Below are positions 54,904 to 62,635 of a stretch of 64,000 nt of DNA, in pieces. Made by a program: the position numbers and the translations under genes. The notes beneath the pieces were generated by a model. It worked only from the letters and a program-made list of their open reading frames with translations, ran no database searches and had not been told where the DNA came from. Where the stretch lies: assembly GCF_000217715.1 (NCBI RefSeq), contig NC_015666.1, positions 322,270 through 386,269 on the forward strand. The letters run 5' to 3'. Within the stretch, counting starts at the first letter, position 1. Each line of letters opens with the position of its first letter. The stretch is from Halopiger xanaduensis SH-6 (GTDB lineage Archaea; Halobacteriota; Halobacteria; Halobacteriales; Natrialbaceae).

Positions 54904-56283
54904 ATGACCACGAACACGGGTCCGAACGTCCTCGCGTTCGACGGCCGCATGGGTGCCAGCGGCGACATGCTCCTCGCCGCCCTGGTCGACGCCGGGGCCG
55001 ATCCCGACGCTCTCGAGGCGGTCGAAGCCACCCTCGAGATCGAGTACCGGATCGCCGAGACGGTCAAGTGCGGGATCGCGTCGACGACGGTCGACGTGGT
55101 GTTGACCGGTGAATCAGGTGACTCGAGCGGTCACGAACACGAGCACGACGAACACAGCCACCAGCACGACGGTCACGATCATTCGAGACACGAGCACGAT
55201 CACGGCCACGACGACCACAATCACGCGGACGGCCACTCGAGCGACGGCGACCACGACCACGTCCACGCCGAGGGTCACGGACCGCACCGCAGCTATCGGG
55301 AAGTCCGCGAGATCGTCGCGGACATGGCCCTCCCCGCCGCCGTCGAAGACGACGCGCTCGCGATCTTCAAACGGCTCGGCGAGGCCGAAGCCAGCGTCCA
55401 CGGCGAGACCCTAGAGGACATTCACTTCCACGAGGTCGGAGCCGACGACGCCATCGCGGACGTCGTCGGCGCGGCGGCGCTGGTCCACGACCTCGAGCCG
55501 GACCGGATCGTCACGACGCCGCTTTCGACCGGCGGCGGCACCGTCGGGATGAGCCACGGCGAGTACCCCGTCCCCACGCCGGCGGTGGTCGAAATCGCCC
55601 GGGAGGCCGACTGGTCGCTGCGCGGCGGGCCCGTCGACCGCGAACTGCTGACCCCGACCGGCGCGGCGATCCTCGCGCACTTCGCCGAGGGCGTCGACGA
55701 ACTCCCCTCGCTCGAGCTCGAGGCGTCGGGCTACGGCGCCGGCGGCTACGACCTCGATCCGCACCCGAACGTGCTCCGGGCGCTCGTCGGCCGAGGTGAC
55801 GGCTCGCTCGTGAAGGACGACATCGCCGTCCTCGAGACGAACCTCGACGATGCAACGCCGGAAGTGCTGGGCGGCCTGCAGGAGACGCTCTCGGACGCGG
55901 GCGCGCGAGACGTTTCGATTCTTCCGGCGACGATGAAGAAGTCCCGCCCGGGCCACCTCGTGAAGGTTATCTGCAAGCCCGAGGATCGGCAGCGCGTCGC
56001 TCGAGCGCTCGCCGAGGAGACGGGGACGCTCGGGGTTCGCGATGCGGGGGCGACACATCGGTGGATCGCACGGCGGGAGTTCGAGACGGTAGAGTTGGAA
56101 CTCGAGGGAGAGACCTACGAGGTGACCGTGAAAATCGCGAGTGACGCCGACGGCGAGGTTTACGACGTGAGTGCCGAGTACGAGGACGCGAAGGCGGTTG
56201 CTCGAGAAACCGAATTGTCGATTCGTGAGGTGATTCGGCGAGCGGAAGACCAGAGTCCGACAAATCGTAGAGACGAATTCTGA
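54904..56283 (+). CDS. larC: LarC-type nickel-insertion protein with His-rich region
   Basis: I chose the ATG at 54904 (459 residues); the frame upstream is not coding. The start AFDGRMGASGDMLLAAL carries the LarC signature (D-x-x-x-G-x-S-G-D-M). The protein has the family's C-terminal domains (VLETNLDDATPEVLGGLQET and MKKSRPGHLVKVICKPEDRQ). LarC inserts nickel into the pyridinium cofactor of lactate racemase (LarA) using CTP. Residues about 77-128 are a His/Asp-rich segment with more than 20 His residues, longer than in many homologues, probably for nickel storage. larA, larB and larE are not in this window. The last 560 bp are duplicated at 57540-58090. Confidence 0.9.
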   Translation: MTTNTGPNVLAFDGRMGASGDMLLAALVDAGADPDALEAVEATLEIEYRIAETVKCGIASTTVDVVLTGESGDSSGHEHEHDEHSHQHDGHDHSRHEHDHGHDDHNHADGHSSDGDHDHVHAEGHGPHRSYREVREIVADMALPAAVEDDALAIFKRLGEAEASVHGETLEDIHFHEVGADDAIADVVGAAALVHDLEPDRIVTTPLSTGGGTVGMSHGEYPVPTPAVVEIAREADWSLRGGPVDRELLTPTGAAILAHFAEGVDELPSLELEASGYGAGGYDLDPHPNVLRALVGRGDGSLVKDDIAVLETNLDDATPEVLGGLQETLSDAGARDVSILPATMKKSRPGHLVKVICKPEDRQRVARALAEETGTLGVRDAGATHRWIARREFETVELELEGETYEVTVKIASDADGEVYDVSAEYEDAKAVARETELSIREVIRRAEDQSPTNRRDEF

Positions 56284-56487: not shown

Positions 56488-57258
56488 TCAGAGAAGACCG
56501 TCGACGTCAAGGTCGAGGTCGAACTGCGCATCAAGGAAGTCCGATGCGTCCGAAGCATCATCGAAGGGACCGAATTGCTCACCGTCAACGATGACGAAGA
56601 CGCCAGCGGAAGTCTCGAATGCGGAGACATCCTCTTCACTGACACCGTCGTCGCCGTTAGTACCGTCGTCGCCGTTAGTACCGTCGTCGCCGTTAGTACC
56701 GTCGTCGCCGTCAGTTTCGTTCTCGTCGTCAGCACCGTCATCGGCGCCGAAGATGTTATCCTCGACGTCGATTTCCTGTTCGGGCTCGACGTCCTGCTCG
56801 GCGTCGACGCTCGAGTCAGCAGTCGCGTCGACGTCAGCAGCGTTGGTCTGGTCGACGTCCTGGTTCTGCGCGACTTCAGCGGTGGAGAACGCCGTCGCGC
56901 CAGTACCGGCACCGTTATCGGTAGCCGCAGCGCCGCCGGCACCGCCGCTCTTTTGTTTGGCGTGGTCCGCAGCGCCCGCAGCAGCGCCACCAGAGCCGGA
57001 GCCGCCAACGGCGAGCGCGTCACCGGACGTCGCGCTGGCCGTCTGCGCGTTGTTGTTGGTCTGGTCGACGCTCACTTCGGTCGTCGCGTCACCGGACTCG
57101 ATGTCCTGAATCGCCTCGACATCCTGGTCAAGGAGGTCTCCGTCGAAGAGATCGTCCGTGTCGGTATCGTTATCCTGTGCCGCTGCCGTTCCAGCGAGTG
57201 CCATCGCCGCAAGGGCGACCATCGCTACCGTCAGTGTGATTGCGAGTGCGCGCTTCAT
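56488..57258 (-). CDS. Secreted Q/N-repeat protein, curlin-like family (A1)
   Basis: I chose the ATG at 57258 (256 residues), which gives a Sec signal peptide (MKRALAITLTVAMVALAAMA ... TAAAQ) and probable cleavage after about residue 27. The mature protein has two family motifs, VDQTNNNAQ and NQDVDQTNAAD, separated by a Gly/Ala/Ser-rich spacer. Then come an Asp/Glu-rich part and four TNGDDG units (four 18-bp repeats), and a distinct C-terminal end (FVIVDGEQFGPFDDASDASD). It is paralogous to the protein at 58172-58816 and related to the large repeat protein at 59502. Probably secreted, extracellular or cell-surface; assembly into fibres is inference. 204 bp of non-coding DNA lie between it and larC. 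Confidence 0.75.
   Translation of the reverse strand: MKRALAITLTVAMVALAAMALAGTAAAQDNDTDTDDLFDGDLLDQDVEAIQDIESGDATTEVSVDQTNNNAQTASATSGDALAVGGSGSGGAAAGAADHAKQKSGGAGGAAATDNGAGTGATAFSTAEVAQNQDVDQTNAADVDATADSSVDAEQDVEPEQEIDVEDNIFGADDGADDENETDGDDGTNGDDGTNGDDGTNGDDGVSEEDVSAFETSAGVFVIVDGEQFGPFDDASDASDFLDAQFDLDLDVDGLL
56644..56715 (-). repeat. Four tandem 18-bp repeats inside the A1 gene
   Basis: The unit (plus strand ACCGTCGTCGCCGTTAGT) occurs at 56644, 56662, 56680 and 56698, the last with one changed base. In protein each unit is TNGDDG or NGDDGT. The paralogue at 58172 lacks them, so they arose or expanded after the duplication. They are in frame and variable in principle. Confidence 0.85.
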
Positions 57259-57539
57259 AGTTGAATTTTTGCTGTTTATGAGGCACGCATCACACGGGAG
57301 TACCGCTCCGCAACCGAGCTCGACCCTTTCCGCGGGCCGCCGCTCGTCACGGGAGGTACCAACCGACTCCCGACGCATCCCCTGTGACGCGTTGCCCAGT
57401 CGCTGCTCATCACGGAGTCCCACTTCAACCCGAACTACAGTTTCAGGGGAAGACTCGAATTAGAAGTGCTACAGCTGTTGATCTGTTTCTGCTGATGGAG
57501 ATTTCATTGTTCCTAATACTACACCTTCGAACGAGACGA

Positions 57540-58090
57540 GAACCGCCCGTCGCTCGAGATCGAGGCTCGAGCCACGGCGCCGACAGCTTCGACCTCGATC
57601 CACACCCAGACGTGCTCCGGGCGCTCGTCGGCCGGAACGAGAGGGGTGCTCGTGACCGACGACATCGCCGTCCTCGAGACGAACCTCGAGCCACGCGACG
57701 CCGAAAGTCATAGCCTACAGGACGAATTTATGGACGCGGGCGAGCGTGGCGTTTCGATCCTGCCGGCGATGATGAAGAAGTTCCGCCCTGGCGACCTCGT
57801 GAAGATCATCTGCAAACCCAGGCATCGCCAGCGCGTCGCTCGAGCGCTGACCGAGAAGACGGGACATTAGGTGTTCGTAATGCAGGGATCGGGGCGACGC
57901 ATCGATGGATTGCACAGCAAGAGTTCGAGACGGAGGGTTGGTACTCGACGGCGAAACCCACGAAGTGACTGTGAAATAGCGAGCGATGCCGACGGCGAGA
58001 TTTACGACGTCAGTGCCGAGTGCGAGGACCGAAGGTAGTTGCTCGAAAAGTCGATTTGTCGAATCGAAGTGTGATTCAACAGGCAGAAAC
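57540..58090 (+). pseudogene. larC 3' fragment, duplicated and decayed
   Basis: Read on the plus strand, the segment repeats larC from about codon 265 to the end: VTDDIAVLETNLEPRDAESH, MKKFRPGDLVKIICKPRHRQ and RVARALTEKTGH match the parent. Frames are broken by small indels around 57650, a stop at 57868-57870 (where the parent continues GTLGVRD) and another stop near 57976 (TAG, parent AAAATC). The fragment has no start and no N-terminal half. It marks the duplication that also copied the secreted-protein gene. Confidence 0.85.
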
Positions 58091-58171
58091 GACTGTACTC
58101 ACTTCCACTAGCTAGGACCCTCACCGCAAGTCAACACATCAAAAAATAAGCAGAACGAATATGGACCGGGT

Positions 58172-58816
58172 TTATCCTTCAGTTGCGTTCAGGTCGACGT
58201 CAGCATTGATCGCATCGACGATGTCAGCGATCGAGTCCTCGCTCAGGTCGACGGTCTCGTTACCGTTGTCAGTGCCGTCGTCGACACCGTCACCGGCGTT
58301 GACTTCGTTATCTTCGACTTCGACTTCCTGTTCGGGTTCGACGTTCTGCTCGGCGTCGACGCTCGAGTCCGCATTAGCGTCGATCTGCGCAGCGTTGGTC
58401 TGGTCGACGTCCTGGTTCTGCGCGACTTCAGCAGTGGAGAACGCCGTAGCGCCAGTGCTGGCACCGTTATCGGTAGCCGTAGCGCCGGCACCGCTACCGC
58501 TCTTGTACTTAGCGTGATCCGCGGCGCCCGCAGCGCCGGCACCGCCGCCGTTACCGGAGCTACCAGCGACCGCGTCACCGGACGTCGCGCTGGCCGTCTG
58601 CGCGTTGTTGTTGGTCTGGTCGACGCTCACTTCGGTCGTCGCGTCACCGGACTCGATGTCCTGCTCCGCATCGACGTCCTGATCGAGGAGGTCTCCGTCG
58701 AAGAGATCGTCGGTTTCGTTGTCTCCGTTGTCCTGTGCAGCTGCCGTTCCAGCGAGTGCCATCGCCGCAACGGCGATCATCGCTACCGTCAGTGTGATTG
58801 CGAGTGCGCGCTTCAT
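58172..58816 (-). CDS. Secreted Q/N-repeat protein, curlin-like family (A2)
   Basis: I chose the ATG at 58816 (214 residues). The signal peptide (MKRALAITLTVAMIAVAAMA) is nearly identical to the one in A1. The mature protein has the same two motifs VDQTNNNAQ and NQDVDQTNAAQ, the Gly/Ala-rich spacer with a DHAKYK segment, and an Asp/Glu-rich region. It ends in SEDSIADIVDAINADVDLNA, unlike A1. It lacks the TNGDDG units. The upstream 240 bp are nearly the same as for A1, so both probably share regulation. Probably secreted. Confidence 0.75.
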   Translation of the reverse strand: MKRALAITLTVAMIAVAAMALAGTAAAQDNGDNETDDLFDGDLLDQDVDAEQDIESGDATTEVSVDQTNNNAQTASATSGDAVAGSSGNGGGAGAAGAADHAKYKSGSGAGATATDNGASTGATAFSTAEVAQNQDVDQTNAAQIDANADSSVDAEQNVEPEQEVEVEDNEVNAGDGVDDGTDNGNETVDLSEDSIADIVDAINADVDLNATEG

Positions 58817-59343
58817 ATTGATGAGTTTCGTGTTTATGAGGCACGCATCACACGGGGGTACCAGCTCCGCAACGGAGCGTCGACCGCTATCCGCAGGCCG
58901 CCGCTCGTCGCGGGAGGTACCAACCGACTCCCGACGCATCCCCGCTGTGACGCGTTGCCCAGTCGCTGCTCATCACGGAGTTCCACTTCAACCCGGACCA
59001 CAGTTTCAGGGGAAGACTCGCATTAGAAGTTCTGCAACCGTTGATCTCTATCTGTTGGGTCGGCTTTCACTCGCTGCAACTGTCCCTCCCAATCGATACG
59101 ATCAGCTTAGCGAACCGTTCGTTCCTCGTTCCGGCAACGGCATCACGCGGTGCCGTCCCCGAAATACCGAGTATGAACTGCGAGGGTTTGCGACCGGCTT
59201 CCAGTAACCACGGCCTTTGCGCCGTGAAACAGTCCCCAATTTCGATACGTAGCCGGCGATTTCGAGACCTCGAGACCGTCAGTGACGGCTGTATAGCATT
59301 TGAGATGGGTTAGCACACCATCAGATCGAGCGGGCCGCGATCG

Positions 59344-59432
59344 AAGTTTCCCCCTTCCGGTCGTAAGTTCCACCCTTCGGAACGGTAGGTCGCTTCATAT
59401 TTGCCGAAACTGACAGATAACAAAGTCTGTCA
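59344..59432 (+). promoter_or_regulatory. Control region of the large curlin-like gene
   Basis: Two imperfect direct repeats (AAGTTTCCCCCTTCCGG at 59344-59360 and AAGTTCCACCCTTCGGA at 59365-59381) lie 21 bp apart, two turns of the helix. They are followed by TTCATATTTG at about 59394, a possible TATA element. Further on is a perfect palindrome (TGACAGA at 59411-59417, TCTGTCA at 59426-59432, spacer TAACAAAG). A leader of about 75 nt would follow. The layout suggests an activator site upstream and an operator or RNA structure downstream. The interval 59056-59340 holds no gene. Confidence 0.4.
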
Positions 59433-59501
59433 TCGGGATACGACGGTTCACGCCGTGGAGTTACAGAAAGGAAGACTCTCACGGTTCACGTCAAACGAAT
59501 C

Positions 59502-61052
59502 ATGACAAACACGACGACGATACGTTCACAGTGTACGACGGTTCTTATGGCATGTATAGTCGCCGTAGCGATGCTCTCGGTCGGCGTGCCGGCGGCCGCA
59601 GCCGCCGAAGACGCCGAGACTGAGGGCGACGGCAGCGCTGGTACGCCCTACGCGCTCGAGGACGACGAAGGCCTGTACCTGGTCTTCGGCGCCGAGCTGG
59701 GAGACATGACCCTCGAGGAGTACATCGAGGAGCACGCGTCCGGCGATCAGATGGACGACGTCGAGATCTCCCAGTACCAGGACGTCGACCAGGTCAACAT
59801 CAACCAGCAGGAGAACGCGACGTCGATCTCGATCGACGGCGGCGAGGCCACGGCGGTGCAGGAGGCCTCGCAGTACAACGATAACGAACAGTACGCGGAC
59901 GCGAACGCGGACAACACGCAGGCGGTCCAGACGGAGTTCGAGGACGTCGGCGAGGTCACGATCCTCATCGGCGACGGCGACGGCAAGTCGTTCGACGGCT
60001 GGGGCATCGCCGACAAGAAGGGCCACAAGCCCGAGATCGACAACGCCGACCAGACGGCCGAAGCCGAAGTGACGCAGGTCCAGGAAGTTGCCCAGCTCAA
60101 CTACAACGAGCAGAACATCGCGTTCGCGATCGCGGAGAACGGCAGCGAAGCGACCGCGCTCCAGCAGTCCCAGCAGTCCAACGAGAACCTGCAACAGGGC
60201 GTCGCGAACGCGACCAACGTCTACACGGGCAACGGTCAGTTCGAGGACCAGGCCGCAGAAGCGGCGGTCCAGCAGGGCCAGGCCGTCAGCCAGGAGAACA
60301 TCAACCAGCAGGACGGCGCCGTTGCGATCGCCGTCGGCAACGACAGCGTCGCGACCGCGATCCAGATGACGGAGCAGACCAACCTCAACGAACAGATCGG
60401 CAACGCGACCGCCGAAAACGTCATCCAGTCGCTCGGCGGCATGAACGTCGCCACGGCCGGTCTCGACGACGACACCCAGGTCCTCGACACCGAGCGCTCG
60501 GTCGAGACGCTGCTCGCCGACAAGGAGGGCGACCACCACAAGAAGAGCGACGAGAAGGTCCAGACGGCCACCTCCGAAGTGGCCCAGAACCAGACCGCCG
60601 AGCAGATGAACGTCAACCTGCAGAACACGGCGCTGGCGCTCGCGACCAACGAGAGCAACGCCACCGCCGTCCAGTTGGCCTACCAGTCCAACATCAACTC
60701 GCAGGTCGGCGCCGCCGACGCGCTGAACGTCTACGCCGGCCCGAGCCACCAGTACGAGAACGCGATCGTGACCTCGACCACGAGCGTGACCGTTGGCGGC
60801 GAAGACGTCGACGGTATCGAAGGGATCTCGTACGACAGCGACGCGCAGCAGACGAACGATCCCCAGCAGCACGCGAGCGCCCAGATCGCGCAGGTGCAGT
60901 TCATCACGCAGGAGAACGTCAACGAGCAGCACGCCGCCATCGCCGTAGCCGAAAACGGAGATGACGCCGACGCTGCGCAGGTGACCATGCAGGAGAACGA
61001 GAACGTCCAGTTCGGGTCCGTCGCCGCGACGAACCTCTGGGCTGCAGCGTAA
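59502..61052 (+). CDS. Large secreted protein with ten curlin-like Q/N repeats (B)
   Basis: The 516-residue protein begins with a signal peptide (VLMACIVAVAMLSVGVPAAA, cleavage near residue 35) and an acidic N-terminal part. Then five repeats of 53-57 residues follow (about 88-140, 189-242, 254-310, 358-413, 459-515). Each holds two half-motifs of the form Q-x3-Q-x-N-x-N-x-Q, 27 or 28 residues apart, for example QTAEQMNVNLQ and QLAYQSNINSQ. Between them lie A-x-A-I/L-A-type strands. Spacers of variable, partly charged sequence separate repeats 1-2 and 3-4. The alternating Gln/Asn ladder resembles CsgA curlin repeats and suggests a beta-solenoid that could polymerise. No sortase or membrane anchor is visible, so it is probably extracellular. 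Confidence 0.8.
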   Translation: MTNTTTIRSQCTTVLMACIVAVAMLSVGVPAAAAAEDAETEGDGSAGTPYALEDDEGLYLVFGAELGDMTLEEYIEEHASGDQMDDVEISQYQDVDQVNINQQENATSISIDGGEATAVQEASQYNDNEQYADANADNTQAVQTEFEDVGEVTILIGDGDGKSFDGWGIADKKGHKPEIDNADQTAEAEVTQVQEVAQLNYNEQNIAFAIAENGSEATALQQSQQSNENLQQGVANATNVYTGNGQFEDQAAEAAVQQGQAVSQENINQQDGAVAIAVGNDSVATAIQMTEQTNLNEQIGNATAENVIQSLGGMNVATAGLDDDTQVLDTERSVETLLADKEGDHHKKSDEKVQTATSEVAQNQTAEQMNVNLQNTALALATNESNATAVQLAYQSNINSQVGAADALNVYAGPSHQYENAIVTSTTSVTVGGEDVDGIEGISYDSDAQQTNDPQQHASAQIAQVQFITQENVNEQHAAIAVAENGDDADAAQVTMQENENVQFGSVAATNLWAAA

Positions 61053-61300
61053 CTGAACCGTTACGCGATCGTCGTTCGACCGGCTACCGACTCCGTTTCG
61101 ATATTCTGTTTTTTGCCGTCCGTCCCGCGAATCGAGCCGCGCGACTCCTGTCGGCAGCGAGCGTCACCGATGATTCCGTCCCGCCTTATCCGCACGACGG
61201 CTCCTGCGACGGCCCAAAATCAAAACGCGCGTCGCGCGTACGGTTCCAAAAAATGGACTGAGACAGGCGTTCTCGTCGAGGCGAATCGAACCGAGACCGA

Positions 61301-61648
61301 TCAGTCGAACATCTCGCCGACGTTCGCGAGCGTCTGGTCGACGATGTCGGTGCCGAAGTCGGTGTCGATGAAGTCGTCACCGCCGTCGACGGCGTCGCCG
61401 TCCTCGTCAGATAGGTCGCCGGTTCCGTCCGTCGCAAATGACGTCTCGGTCTCCGTCACACTCTCCTCGATCGTCTGCGAACTCTCGTTTTGAACCGATA
61501 CGTTCTCGGTTGCTTCGCCGGTCTCGACCGACTCCGAGACCGATTCGCTTTCCTGTGCTGTTGCCGCTCCGATGCCGAAGGTCATCGCCAGCAATCCGAC
61601 GACGACCATCGCCGTAAGTAACCGCTGACCGATCTTCCGTCCAATCAT
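61301..61648 (-). CDS. Small secreted acidic protein, diverged family member (C)
   Basis: The 115-residue protein has a signal peptide (LLTAMVVVGLLAMTFGIGAA, cleavage near TAQ). The mature part starts with a segment (ETGEATENVSVQNESSQT) that can be aligned with SGDATTEVSVDQTNNNAQ of A1/A2, but without the Gln/Asn ladder. The rest is Asp/Glu/Thr-rich, with GDDFIDTDFGTDIVDQTLAN at the end. It is convergent with the large repeat gene (about 248 bp of non-coding DNA between) and may be an accessory such as a capping or chaperone-like protein. That role is inference. Confidence 0.6.
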   Translation of the reverse strand: MIGRKIGQRLLTAMVVVGLLAMTFGIGAATAQESESVSESVETGEATENVSVQNESSQTIEESVTETETSFATDGTGDLSDEDGDAVDGGDDFIDTDFGTDIVDQTLANVGEMFD

Positions 61649-61671: not shown

Positions 61672-62014
61672 CGGCGATTCACCGGAAGCGGGAATAAACG
61701 AAGGCAATCGTTTGCAAGCCAAACACGCGATTGCGACGCTGTAGTCGAAACTTTGCACGGCGATCGAGTCGCCGTCCGATCGTGTGACCGGAGTGAAAGA
61801 TCGACGGCTGGCAGCGCGGTAAGGGGAGCCAAATCGGTTGCCGATCGCGGTTCCCACGCGTGATTACACGTCGCACCGGCGCGTTCTCGCGCCCGCGCTC
61901 GAGGCGTCCCAAGCCCCAAGCGGCGACGCCGACCCGGCCGACCGTCCGTCGGGAGGCGTGACGGTCACGAACCGATGAAAAAGTGGTATTACCCTCGGTG
62001 TGGCCCCTCCGGAT

Positions 62015-62635
62015 ATGGACCGCCGCACGCTCGTTCGGATCGCACCCGGCGTCGGACTCGGATTCCTCGCGGGCTGTCTCGGCGCCGCCGACGACTCGTC
62101 GGACGGCGACGGCGAGACCGCGGGGAACGAAACGGCGGAGACGGAAAGCGAGACGGGCACAGAGACCGCGAATGAGACTGAAACGGACGGGGGCGACGAC
62201 GTGCTCGAGGACGACGCGGAACTGACTTTCGAGACGCTCGAGGTCGGTCCGTTCGAGGCGATTACCACGACGGCGCTCGACGACTCGGCTGACAAAGGGG
62301 ACGGTGAGAAGGCGGCCGACGAGGAGCCGGTCGACGAGGGGGCGACCGTCTACCACCGCATCACGATCGAGAACGCGTCGAATCGGGATCGGGAGCTCTC
62401 GATTCGAATCGATCGCGACGGGACCACCGTCCTCGAGGGAACGAACGAACTGTCCCCCGAGACGGCCCTCGAGATCGTCATCGGGGAGCCGGGAACCTAC
62501 GAGACGACGCTCGAGGCCGGCGGGATCCGAAACACGTCGTCGATCTCGCGGTCGGGAACGCCCTGCGAGGAGTCGCGGACGGTCGTCTCGTTTACCGACG
62601 GCGGGATCGAGACGAACACGACGACGTCCTGTTGA
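62015..62635 (+). CDS. Lipoprotein with twin-arginine-type start
   Basis: I chose the ATG at 62015 (206 residues); an in-frame GTG at 62000 is less likely. The N terminus DRRTLVRIAPGVGLGFLAGC has the RR pair, a hydrophobic stretch and a lipobox with Cys21, so the protein should be lipid-anchored outside the cell. Residues 25-70 are a Glu/Thr/Ser/Asp-rich linker. The C-terminal about 100 residues form a beta-rich domain (YHRITIENASNRDRELSIRI) with two Cys residues near the end. No function is recognised. The 366 bp before it (61649-62014) hold the palindrome and no other gene. Confidence 0.75.
   Translation: MDRRTLVRIAPGVGLGFLAGCLGAADDSSDGDGETAGNETAETESETGTETANETETDGGDDVLEDDAELTFETLEVGPFEAITTTALDDSADKGDGEKAADEEPVDEGATVYHRITIENASNRDRELSIRIDRDGTTVLEGTNELSPETALEIVIGEPGTYETTLEAGGIRNTSSISRSGTPCEESRTVVSFTDGGIETNTTTSC

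Follow-up and report, generated by a model that had tools for sequence, protein, structure and literature searches.

Genes and repeats

The window, a 64,000-nucleotide stretch of the Halopiger xanaduensis SH-6 genome, contains four neighbouring genes, here called A, B, C and D (Table 1), with A and B in divergent orientation to C. All four reading frames are open and encode Sec-like N-termini. An earlier sequence-only reading treated the four as a cluster of secreted, curlin-like proteins on the strength of Sec-type signal peptides and a motif, Q-x-N-x-N-x-Q, often with a preceding Q-x3, and this motif is indeed found in three of them, far above the expectation from shuffled sequences. C contains ten copies (0.05 expected from shuffles of its mature part), all ten of which have the preceding Q-x3 (i.e., QxxxQxNxNxQ; 0.005 expected by shuffling). 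A and B each contain one copy (0.002–0.004 expected) and, in addition, an incomplete one, VAQNQDVDQTN.

Table 1. Genes, repeat units and upstream elements at the locus (positions are those of the window).
Feature	Position	Strand	Description
A	56488..57258	-	256 aa, small, secreted; tandem paralogue of B
GACTGGGCAACGCGTCAC element upstream of A	57384..57401	-	12-mer core GGGCAACGCGTC
B	58172..58816	-	214 aa, small, secreted; two half-motifs flanking a Gly/Ala-rich insert
GACTGGGCAACGCGTCAC element upstream of B	58947..58964	-	same element as upstream of A
Conserved element directly upstream of C	59405..59501	+	30 homologues aligned
C	59502..61052	+	516 aa, Sec-like signal, five 55-residue pair-units (ten half-repeats) plus linkers
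C pair-unit 1	59751..59921	+	residues 84-140
C pair-unit 2	60054..60227	+	residues 185-242
C pair-unit 3	60252..60428	+	residues 251-309
C pair-unit 4	60564..60740	+	residues 355-413
C pair-unit 5	60870..61046	+	residues 457-515
D	61301..61648	-	Sec-like N-terminus, no motif

The ten motifs of C form five pairs, with spacings of 27–28 residues within a pair and 40–75 residues between pairs. The protein is acidic and Q/N/A-rich, terminates at its last repeat without an anchor, and is encoded by a single full-length copy in this genome. It is a candidate subunit of a matrix or fibre. A and B arose as a tandem duplication (87% DNA identity between the two regions) and have low-complexity inserts and two weaker motifs each, which in B are VSVDQTNNNAQ and VAQNQDVDQTN. 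Relative to B, A has an additional acidic C-terminal part with a TNGDDG-type tandem. B is a candidate minor subunit, cap or nucleator.

We rejected D as a fourth component: the motif is absent from it, profile comparison shows no similarity to the repeats, and D-like genes are confined to close relatives.

Distribution and genetic linkage

Of 125 genomes of the family (GTDB; Natrialbaceae), 99 have a homologue of C, and within the sampled phylum such homologues are confined to one order. An alignment of 44 homologues (36–90% identity to C) covers all five units in every sequence, with Q, N, A and G invariant in a position-specific manner. A profile of the unit finds exactly five copies in 13 of 15 positive genomes, the other two having ten units over two genes and six units, respectively.

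By iterated profile search, the A-like small proteins have the repeat of C in common, and their genes are linked to it: an A-like gene lies head-to-head upstream of C at 34/41 loci with a Sec-type C; split by subfamily, one or more such genes lie divergent upstream at 29/33 Sec-type and 5/8 PGF-CTERM loci. A Tat-signal subfamily of C relatives has Lys-rich tails and a linked A-like gene at none of six loci. Nine of the 44 C relatives carry at their C-terminus the PGF-CTERM anchor of archaeosortase substrates (TIGR04126, best E 5.5e-12), the features of which (PGF motif, hydrophobic stretch and basic end) are absent from C of this window.

The genes conserved around the C/A pair have a housekeeping appearance (they include larC, a Cdc48-type AAA ATPase and a RadA/RadB-like gene), placing the pair in a conserved housekeeping neighbourhood, and no conserved assembly or regulatory gene was seen among them. 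We found no Pfam, NCBIfam or PDB sequence relative, and no experiment on any member; the system bears no Pfam or NCBIfam name. The available sequences support C and the A-like proteins as an undescribed secreted pair with the same Gln/Asn repeat, present five times in C and as one or two degenerate copies in the small partners, genetically linked and near-universal in one haloarchaeal family.

Upstream elements

The element directly upstream of C has a mean column identity of 67% and 12 invariant columns across the 30 homologues. It includes a near-invariant GATAACAAAG at 59416-59425, within the inverted repeat GACAGA...TCTGTC, and its core is unique in this genome. It is probably a promoter or regulatory site. 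The 12-mer core of the element upstream of A and B recurs upstream of A-like genes at 12 loci and has just two copies in this genome. An Rfam scan of the region gave nothing above threshold, so nothing marks the upstream elements as known RNAs.

Predicted structure and covariation

AlphaFold2 predicts nothing but beta-strand within the units of C (pLDDT about 75–85), with disordered linkers and moderate overall confidence (pTM 0.48). The predicted strands are unusually long (27–29 residues) which, together with the moderate confidence, means that C could also form a large antiparallel sheet. The models of A and B are poor (pTM 0.16), that of B having strands just at its two motifs and low confidence elsewhere. 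A Foldseek search of 350,542 PDB chains with C ranked FapC (9u4u) and CsgA (8c50) first and second, neither match being significant (E 0.2 and 0.5, TM about 0.1), and a search of a viral fold library gave no significant match.

Covariation was assessed in 81 C relatives (about 20–38 effective sequences). The same halves of neighbouring units show a parallel, in-register signal (z 5.6 and 4.2) that weakens with growing unit distance, and an antiparallel signal appears within units (z 2.8). Restricting the analysis to one subfamily leaves neighbour signals of 2.0 and 2.2, which still exceed those at every other shift, and a within-unit signal of 3.5. These signals suggest that each unit of C folds back on itself and that neighbouring units stack parallel and in register, giving a five-layer beta-arch stack whose order and register are supported, short of proof. 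Self-pairing of the palindromic QxNxNxQ at a register sum of +6 was also considered and is unsupported; the within-unit signal is at +2.

Besides the number of effective sequences, two points weigh against the covariation evidence: the between-unit signal could be mimicked if repeats exchange sequence with one another, and the full-set signal stems partly from joint N/Q loss in one clade.

On the question of globular versus stacked structure, which the sequence-only reading had raised, the all-beta prediction, the covariation and the top two PDB matches all point to stacked layers, with the fold matches remaining below significance.

Comparison with known systems

Curli (CsgA/CsgB, PF07012) resemble the proteins described here in being secreted Gln/Asn repeat proteins with major and minor subunits and an expected beta-arch stacking. 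C could on that basis be a divergent curlin acquired from bacteria: it is accompanied by small proteins with the same repeat, it contains S-x-A-x-A-x-Q, which resembles the CsgA motif N/S-x-psi-x-psi-x-Q (PMC12822426), and CsgA is the second, non-significant, fold match. However, PF07012 matches neither C (E up to 10) nor its 43–44 aligned relatives (E up to 1) nor anything in the whole genome, in a search whose control did find E. coli, and hhalign of the C unit profile against E. coli CsgA and CsgB gave a probability of 0.1. The curlin spacing Q-x10-Q (from a repeat of 19–23 residues) is not enriched in C (7 seen vs 6.3 expected by shuffling), the period being about 22 in curlin and 55 (two halves of 27) in C. 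C also differs in its linkers between units and its acidic, high-salt setting, no csgEFG-type gene was seen among its conserved neighbours, and its family is limited to one order of the sampled phylum. We therefore reject curlin membership and consider descent from true curli very improbable; "curlin-like" is apt for composition and layout, not for homology.

The covariation suggests a stack organised most like that of FapC. The Fap system of Pseudomonas (FapC/FapB; PMC12392863) has long Gln/Asn repeats with linkers, a nearly fixed repeat number, one inferred repeat per layer, and major/minor subunits that have the same repeat and are encoded by adjacent genes, all of which parallel C and A. 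Both proteins also have an N/Q run followed by alternating Ala (NqQN-psi-a-psi-a in FapC, N-x-N-x-Q-x-x-A-x-A-I-A in C), and FapC is the top, albeit non-significant, PDB fold match. They differ in motif, spacing and repeat size (about 38 residues x 3 in FapC, 55 x 5 in C), no FapA/D/E/F-like neighbours were seen at C loci, and a search with the C unit profile missed the solved FapC chain at E up to 10.

The archaeal sheath proteins (SH of Methanospirillum, MspA of Methanothrix) are extracellular and have an amyloid-like beta-arch, as proposed for C. In the accounts cited here, the strands of SH are antiparallel within each sheet, SH has a cap domain and disulfides, no Gln/Asn repeat is described, and SH homologues are reported from Methanotrichales, Methanomicrobiales, Alkanophagales and Thermofilales, not from haloarchaea (PMC10593813, PMC6242892, PMC11576556). 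Profile searches of the PDB with C gave no SH or TasA-type sequence relation, the sole match being a weak, chance-level one to PhoQ. TasA and the archaeal thread filaments are built of globular subunits linked via a donated strand, whereas C is an extended repeat protein. Like C, they are secreted, and the cited descriptions give them as filament subunits, with TasA in biofilms (PMC9674648, PMC9715654).

Proposed assembly and alternatives

Our best reading is a new extracellular system of haloarchaea, a cross-beta matrix or surface structure that is curli/Fap-like in its working and not homologous to either. It retains from the sequence-only reading a secreted, repeat-sharing system of one large and several small proteins, which is linked and conserved across a haloarchaeal family, and drops curlin membership and D. 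We see roughly an even chance that C is a secreted five-layer beta-arch protein which polymerises with A/B into such a structure; polymerisation, function in a matrix and the parts played by A and B are what we infer. Each 55-residue pair-unit would form two long strands folded back on each other with Gln/Asn and Ala inward, and the five units would lie on top of each other, in register and running parallel, while the flexible linkers loop out. The exposed top and bottom layers could then add to further C, or to the related layer of A/B. Assembly would take place outside the cell after Sec export, and we propose that archaea with one membrane can do without an outer-membrane export or chaperone system. 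This would yield a cross-beta fibre or meshwork in the extracellular matrix or at the cell surface, tied to the cell in some relatives by the archaeosortase anchor on C.

The main alternative, which we regard as less likely, is that C does not polymerise and is instead a monomeric surface protein (adhesin, stalk or S-layer accessory) in the form of a beta-solenoid or long beta-sheet, with A and B being small secreted relatives that bind C or act separately. The anchors in nine C relatives, the subfamily with Tat-type signals, Lys-rich tails and no linked small gene, and the disordered linkers all fit this alternative, as does a unit number fixed at five, which is what a finished domain would have. 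Against it, the subfamily represented in the window lacks an anchor and has nothing after the last repeat, both the Gln/Asn ladder and the genetic linkage to relatives of one unit are in keeping with a polymer that has minor subunits, and FapC, which is a fibre, likewise combines long linkers with a repeat number that hardly varies (PMC12392863). An improbable alternative is an export-and-stick polymer with no ordered cross-beta, i.e., a Gln/Asn-rich acidic glue or hydrogel whose repeats are kept for weak multivalent contacts. The composition of C, its disordered linkers and the low-complexity inserts of A and B would suit such a material, but the position-specific invariance across 44 sequences, the predicted strands and the position-specific covariation argue for an ordered fold.

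The PGF-CTERM and Tat subfamilies may act as single surface proteins, a possibility that counts against our best reading.

A fuller version of the polymerising reading sees in the system the haloarchaeal equivalent of curli/Fap. The cross-beta fibre would have evolved independently, would consist of five-layer subunits with one-layer nucleators/caps, would be exported by Sec only with no machinery for assembly, and would withstand saturated salt, being archaeosortase-tethered in some genera. We consider this plausible, at somewhat below even chances. If true, it would explain genetically how this haloarchaeal family could form an amyloid-type matrix. Biofilms of Haloferax volcanii are reported to take up Congo red and thioflavin T, in a study that could name no more than a tentative candidate gene (PMC4180959); that staining is, as far as tested, not accounted for by the C family. 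For genetic work, the C family itself offers a concrete target: most members of one haloarchaeal family have it, together with small proteins bearing the repeat, and conserved sequences of its own lie upstream. If C polymerises, layered cross-beta matrix proteins would have arisen again in archaea without dedicated export/chaperone genes, and the product would be a salt-stable protein material.

A secreted two-component repeat family

The sequence-only reading claimed four secreted-protein genes, three of them sharing a Gln/Asn motif, and both claims stand: A to D are open reading frames beginning with Sec-like signal peptides, and the motif is present in A, B and C. The large protein C (516 aa) contains ten copies of QxxxQxNxNxQ (residues 93, 120, 194, 221, 260, 288, 364, 391, 466 and 493), against an average of 0.005 expected from shuffled mature C. 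These form five pairs, with 27-28 residues within a pair and linkers between pairs, and the resulting 55-residue pair-unit, made of two half-repeats (h1 and h2), has the consensus xAxAxVxQxQxVxQxNxNxQxxAxAIAxxGSxATAxQxxxQxNxNxQxGxAxAxN. A and B, which are paralogues in tandem, both have one complete and one partial motif with an insert rich in Gly and Ala between the two; their strand makes them divergent from C.

Features of the repeat-protein locus, in window positions
Feature	Position	Strand	Remark
A	56488-57258	minus	Sec-like signal peptide
B	58172-58816	minus	Sec-like signal peptide
C	59502-61052	plus	Sec-like signal peptide
D	61301-61648	minus	Sec-like signal peptide; small, acidic
Lipoprotein-like gene near D	62000-62635		lipobox LAGC
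GACTGGGCAACGCGTCAC element upstream of A-like genes	57384-57401 and 58947-58964		core common to many genera
Conserved element directly upstream of C	59405-59501		about 85-95 bp
larC fragment between A and B	57546-58077		80% identical to 55704-56236 over 543 bp

Relatives of C are present in 99 of 125 genomes and 26 of 29 genera of the family, which is Natrialbaceae as judged from locus names. A class-wide sample gave 85 positive genomes out of 391, mostly of this family, with five strong matches spread over three further families of its order; in a small phylum-wide sample, the unit profile at E 1e-4 matched no genome outside the family. All 44 aligned relatives span all five units, and in nearly all genomes each gene has exactly five units by the unit profile.

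An iterated profile search from A retrieved small proteins, secreted and about 95-300 aa long, in which the C repeat is matched too; several are a single pair-unit behind a nearly invariant signal peptide, and 52/61 small matches lie divergently upstream of a C gene. Homologues do co-occur: one to three A-like genes are divergent from and directly upstream of C at 29 of 33 Sec-type loci and 5 of 8 PGF-CTERM loci, and at none of the 6 Tat-type loci. That A and C represent a new, conserved, secreted two-component repeat family is established.

D, also proposed for the set, was dropped because a search found no motif in it, it has no repeat in common with the others, and D-like genes are confined to close relatives. 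There they travel downstream of C with the lipoprotein-like gene (P0006).

Probable stacking and cell-surface location

A likeness to curlin was also proposed, but the family is not curlin: PF07012 gave no match, profile comparison with CsgA/CsgB was negative, the period is wrong and no assembly-type neighbours were seen. No sequence relatives were found in the PDB. AlphaFold2 (44-row alignment) predicts only beta-strands within units (pLDDT about 75-85) and disordered linkers, with a pTM of 0.48. Among 350,542 chains, the top fold matches were FapC (E 0.2) and CsgA (E 0.49), with TM-scores near 0.1; the ranking is suggestive but is not a match, so we examined stacking by covariation.

Across 81 homologues, in-register covariation links corresponding positions of the same half-repeat in adjacent units (h1-h1 5.6, h2-h2 4.2); it weakens as units lie further apart and is zero four units away. 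Inside a unit the signal is antiparallel (2.8, register sum +2), and no parallel h1-h2 signal was found. Some of the h1 signal traces to N and Q at motif positions +4 and +6 being lost together, as aligned PGF-CTERM members show. With the analysis limited to the largest subfamily (60 sequences, Neff 19.5), the signals between neighbours fall to 2.0 and 2.2, still top of all shifts and above more distant unit pairs, and the within-unit signal is 3.5. This pattern is the one expected of stacked beta-arches, with side chains touching across the arch and layers stacked parallel and in register. Sequence exchange between repeats could mimic the between-unit part, and numbers are small, so we treat the pattern as support for stacked arches, not proof.

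A PGF-CTERM archaeosortase signal ends 9 of the 44 aligned relatives (TIGR04126, E 5.5e-12), which puts the C family on the cell surface, in the anchor-bearing genera at least. A Tat-like KRRGYLKG signal marks another, deep clade, whose members often have Lys-rich tails. Each label sits on supported tree branches; as drawn, the tree has PGF-CTERM in two clades. C of the window has neither signal and ends with its last repeat.

The proposal of an extracellular amyloid or matrix system keeps its secreted repeat family, for which a layered cross-beta architecture is moderately supported, and loses curlin and D. These are very probably secreted beta repeat proteins, and parallel layered stacking of their units is the likelier arrangement; for a matrix or surface polymer the chances are at best even. 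Fibre formation, matrix function and the roles of A and B we infer. Fap is the closest known system in organisation (PMC12392863): it too has long repeats with linkers, a nearly fixed repeat number, probably one repeat per layer, and adjacent major and minor subunit genes with a common repeat. Known archaeal amyloids are sheath proteins of methanogens and relatives; they differ in fold and are not reported from haloarchaea (PMC10593813, PMC11576556).

Upstream elements and gene duplication

The element directly upstream of C has 67% mean column identity and 12 invariant columns across 30 homologues, with no Rfam match. It includes GATAACAAAG, enclosed in the window by an inverted repeat, GACAGA-TAACAAAG-TCTGTC; this repeat may be a palindrome bound by a protein, or may form an RNA hairpin. 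Upstream of A-like genes another element recurs, whose core is GGGCAACGCGTC. The genome has one copy of the C-upstream core and two of the A-like-upstream core, all at this locus; with only two copies, the latter is no general regulon site. The two elements suggest dedicated, conserved control.

The A and B regions share 87% identity over 787 bp, and between them lies a decaying fragment of the neighbouring gene larC; we therefore attribute B and A to tandem duplication of a segment including part of larC. In a second member of the genus (L067), three A-like genes stand side by side. Stand-alone single-unit small proteins occur away from C at L053 (three in 5 kb) and L126-L128, and Tat-type lineages have their small genes unlinked to C. 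Longer A-like proteins (L044:5514-6389, L049:11253-12071, L058:11079-12095) have a domain of ~100 residues inserted between the two half-motifs, with a conserved TVxF start and a Cys pair.
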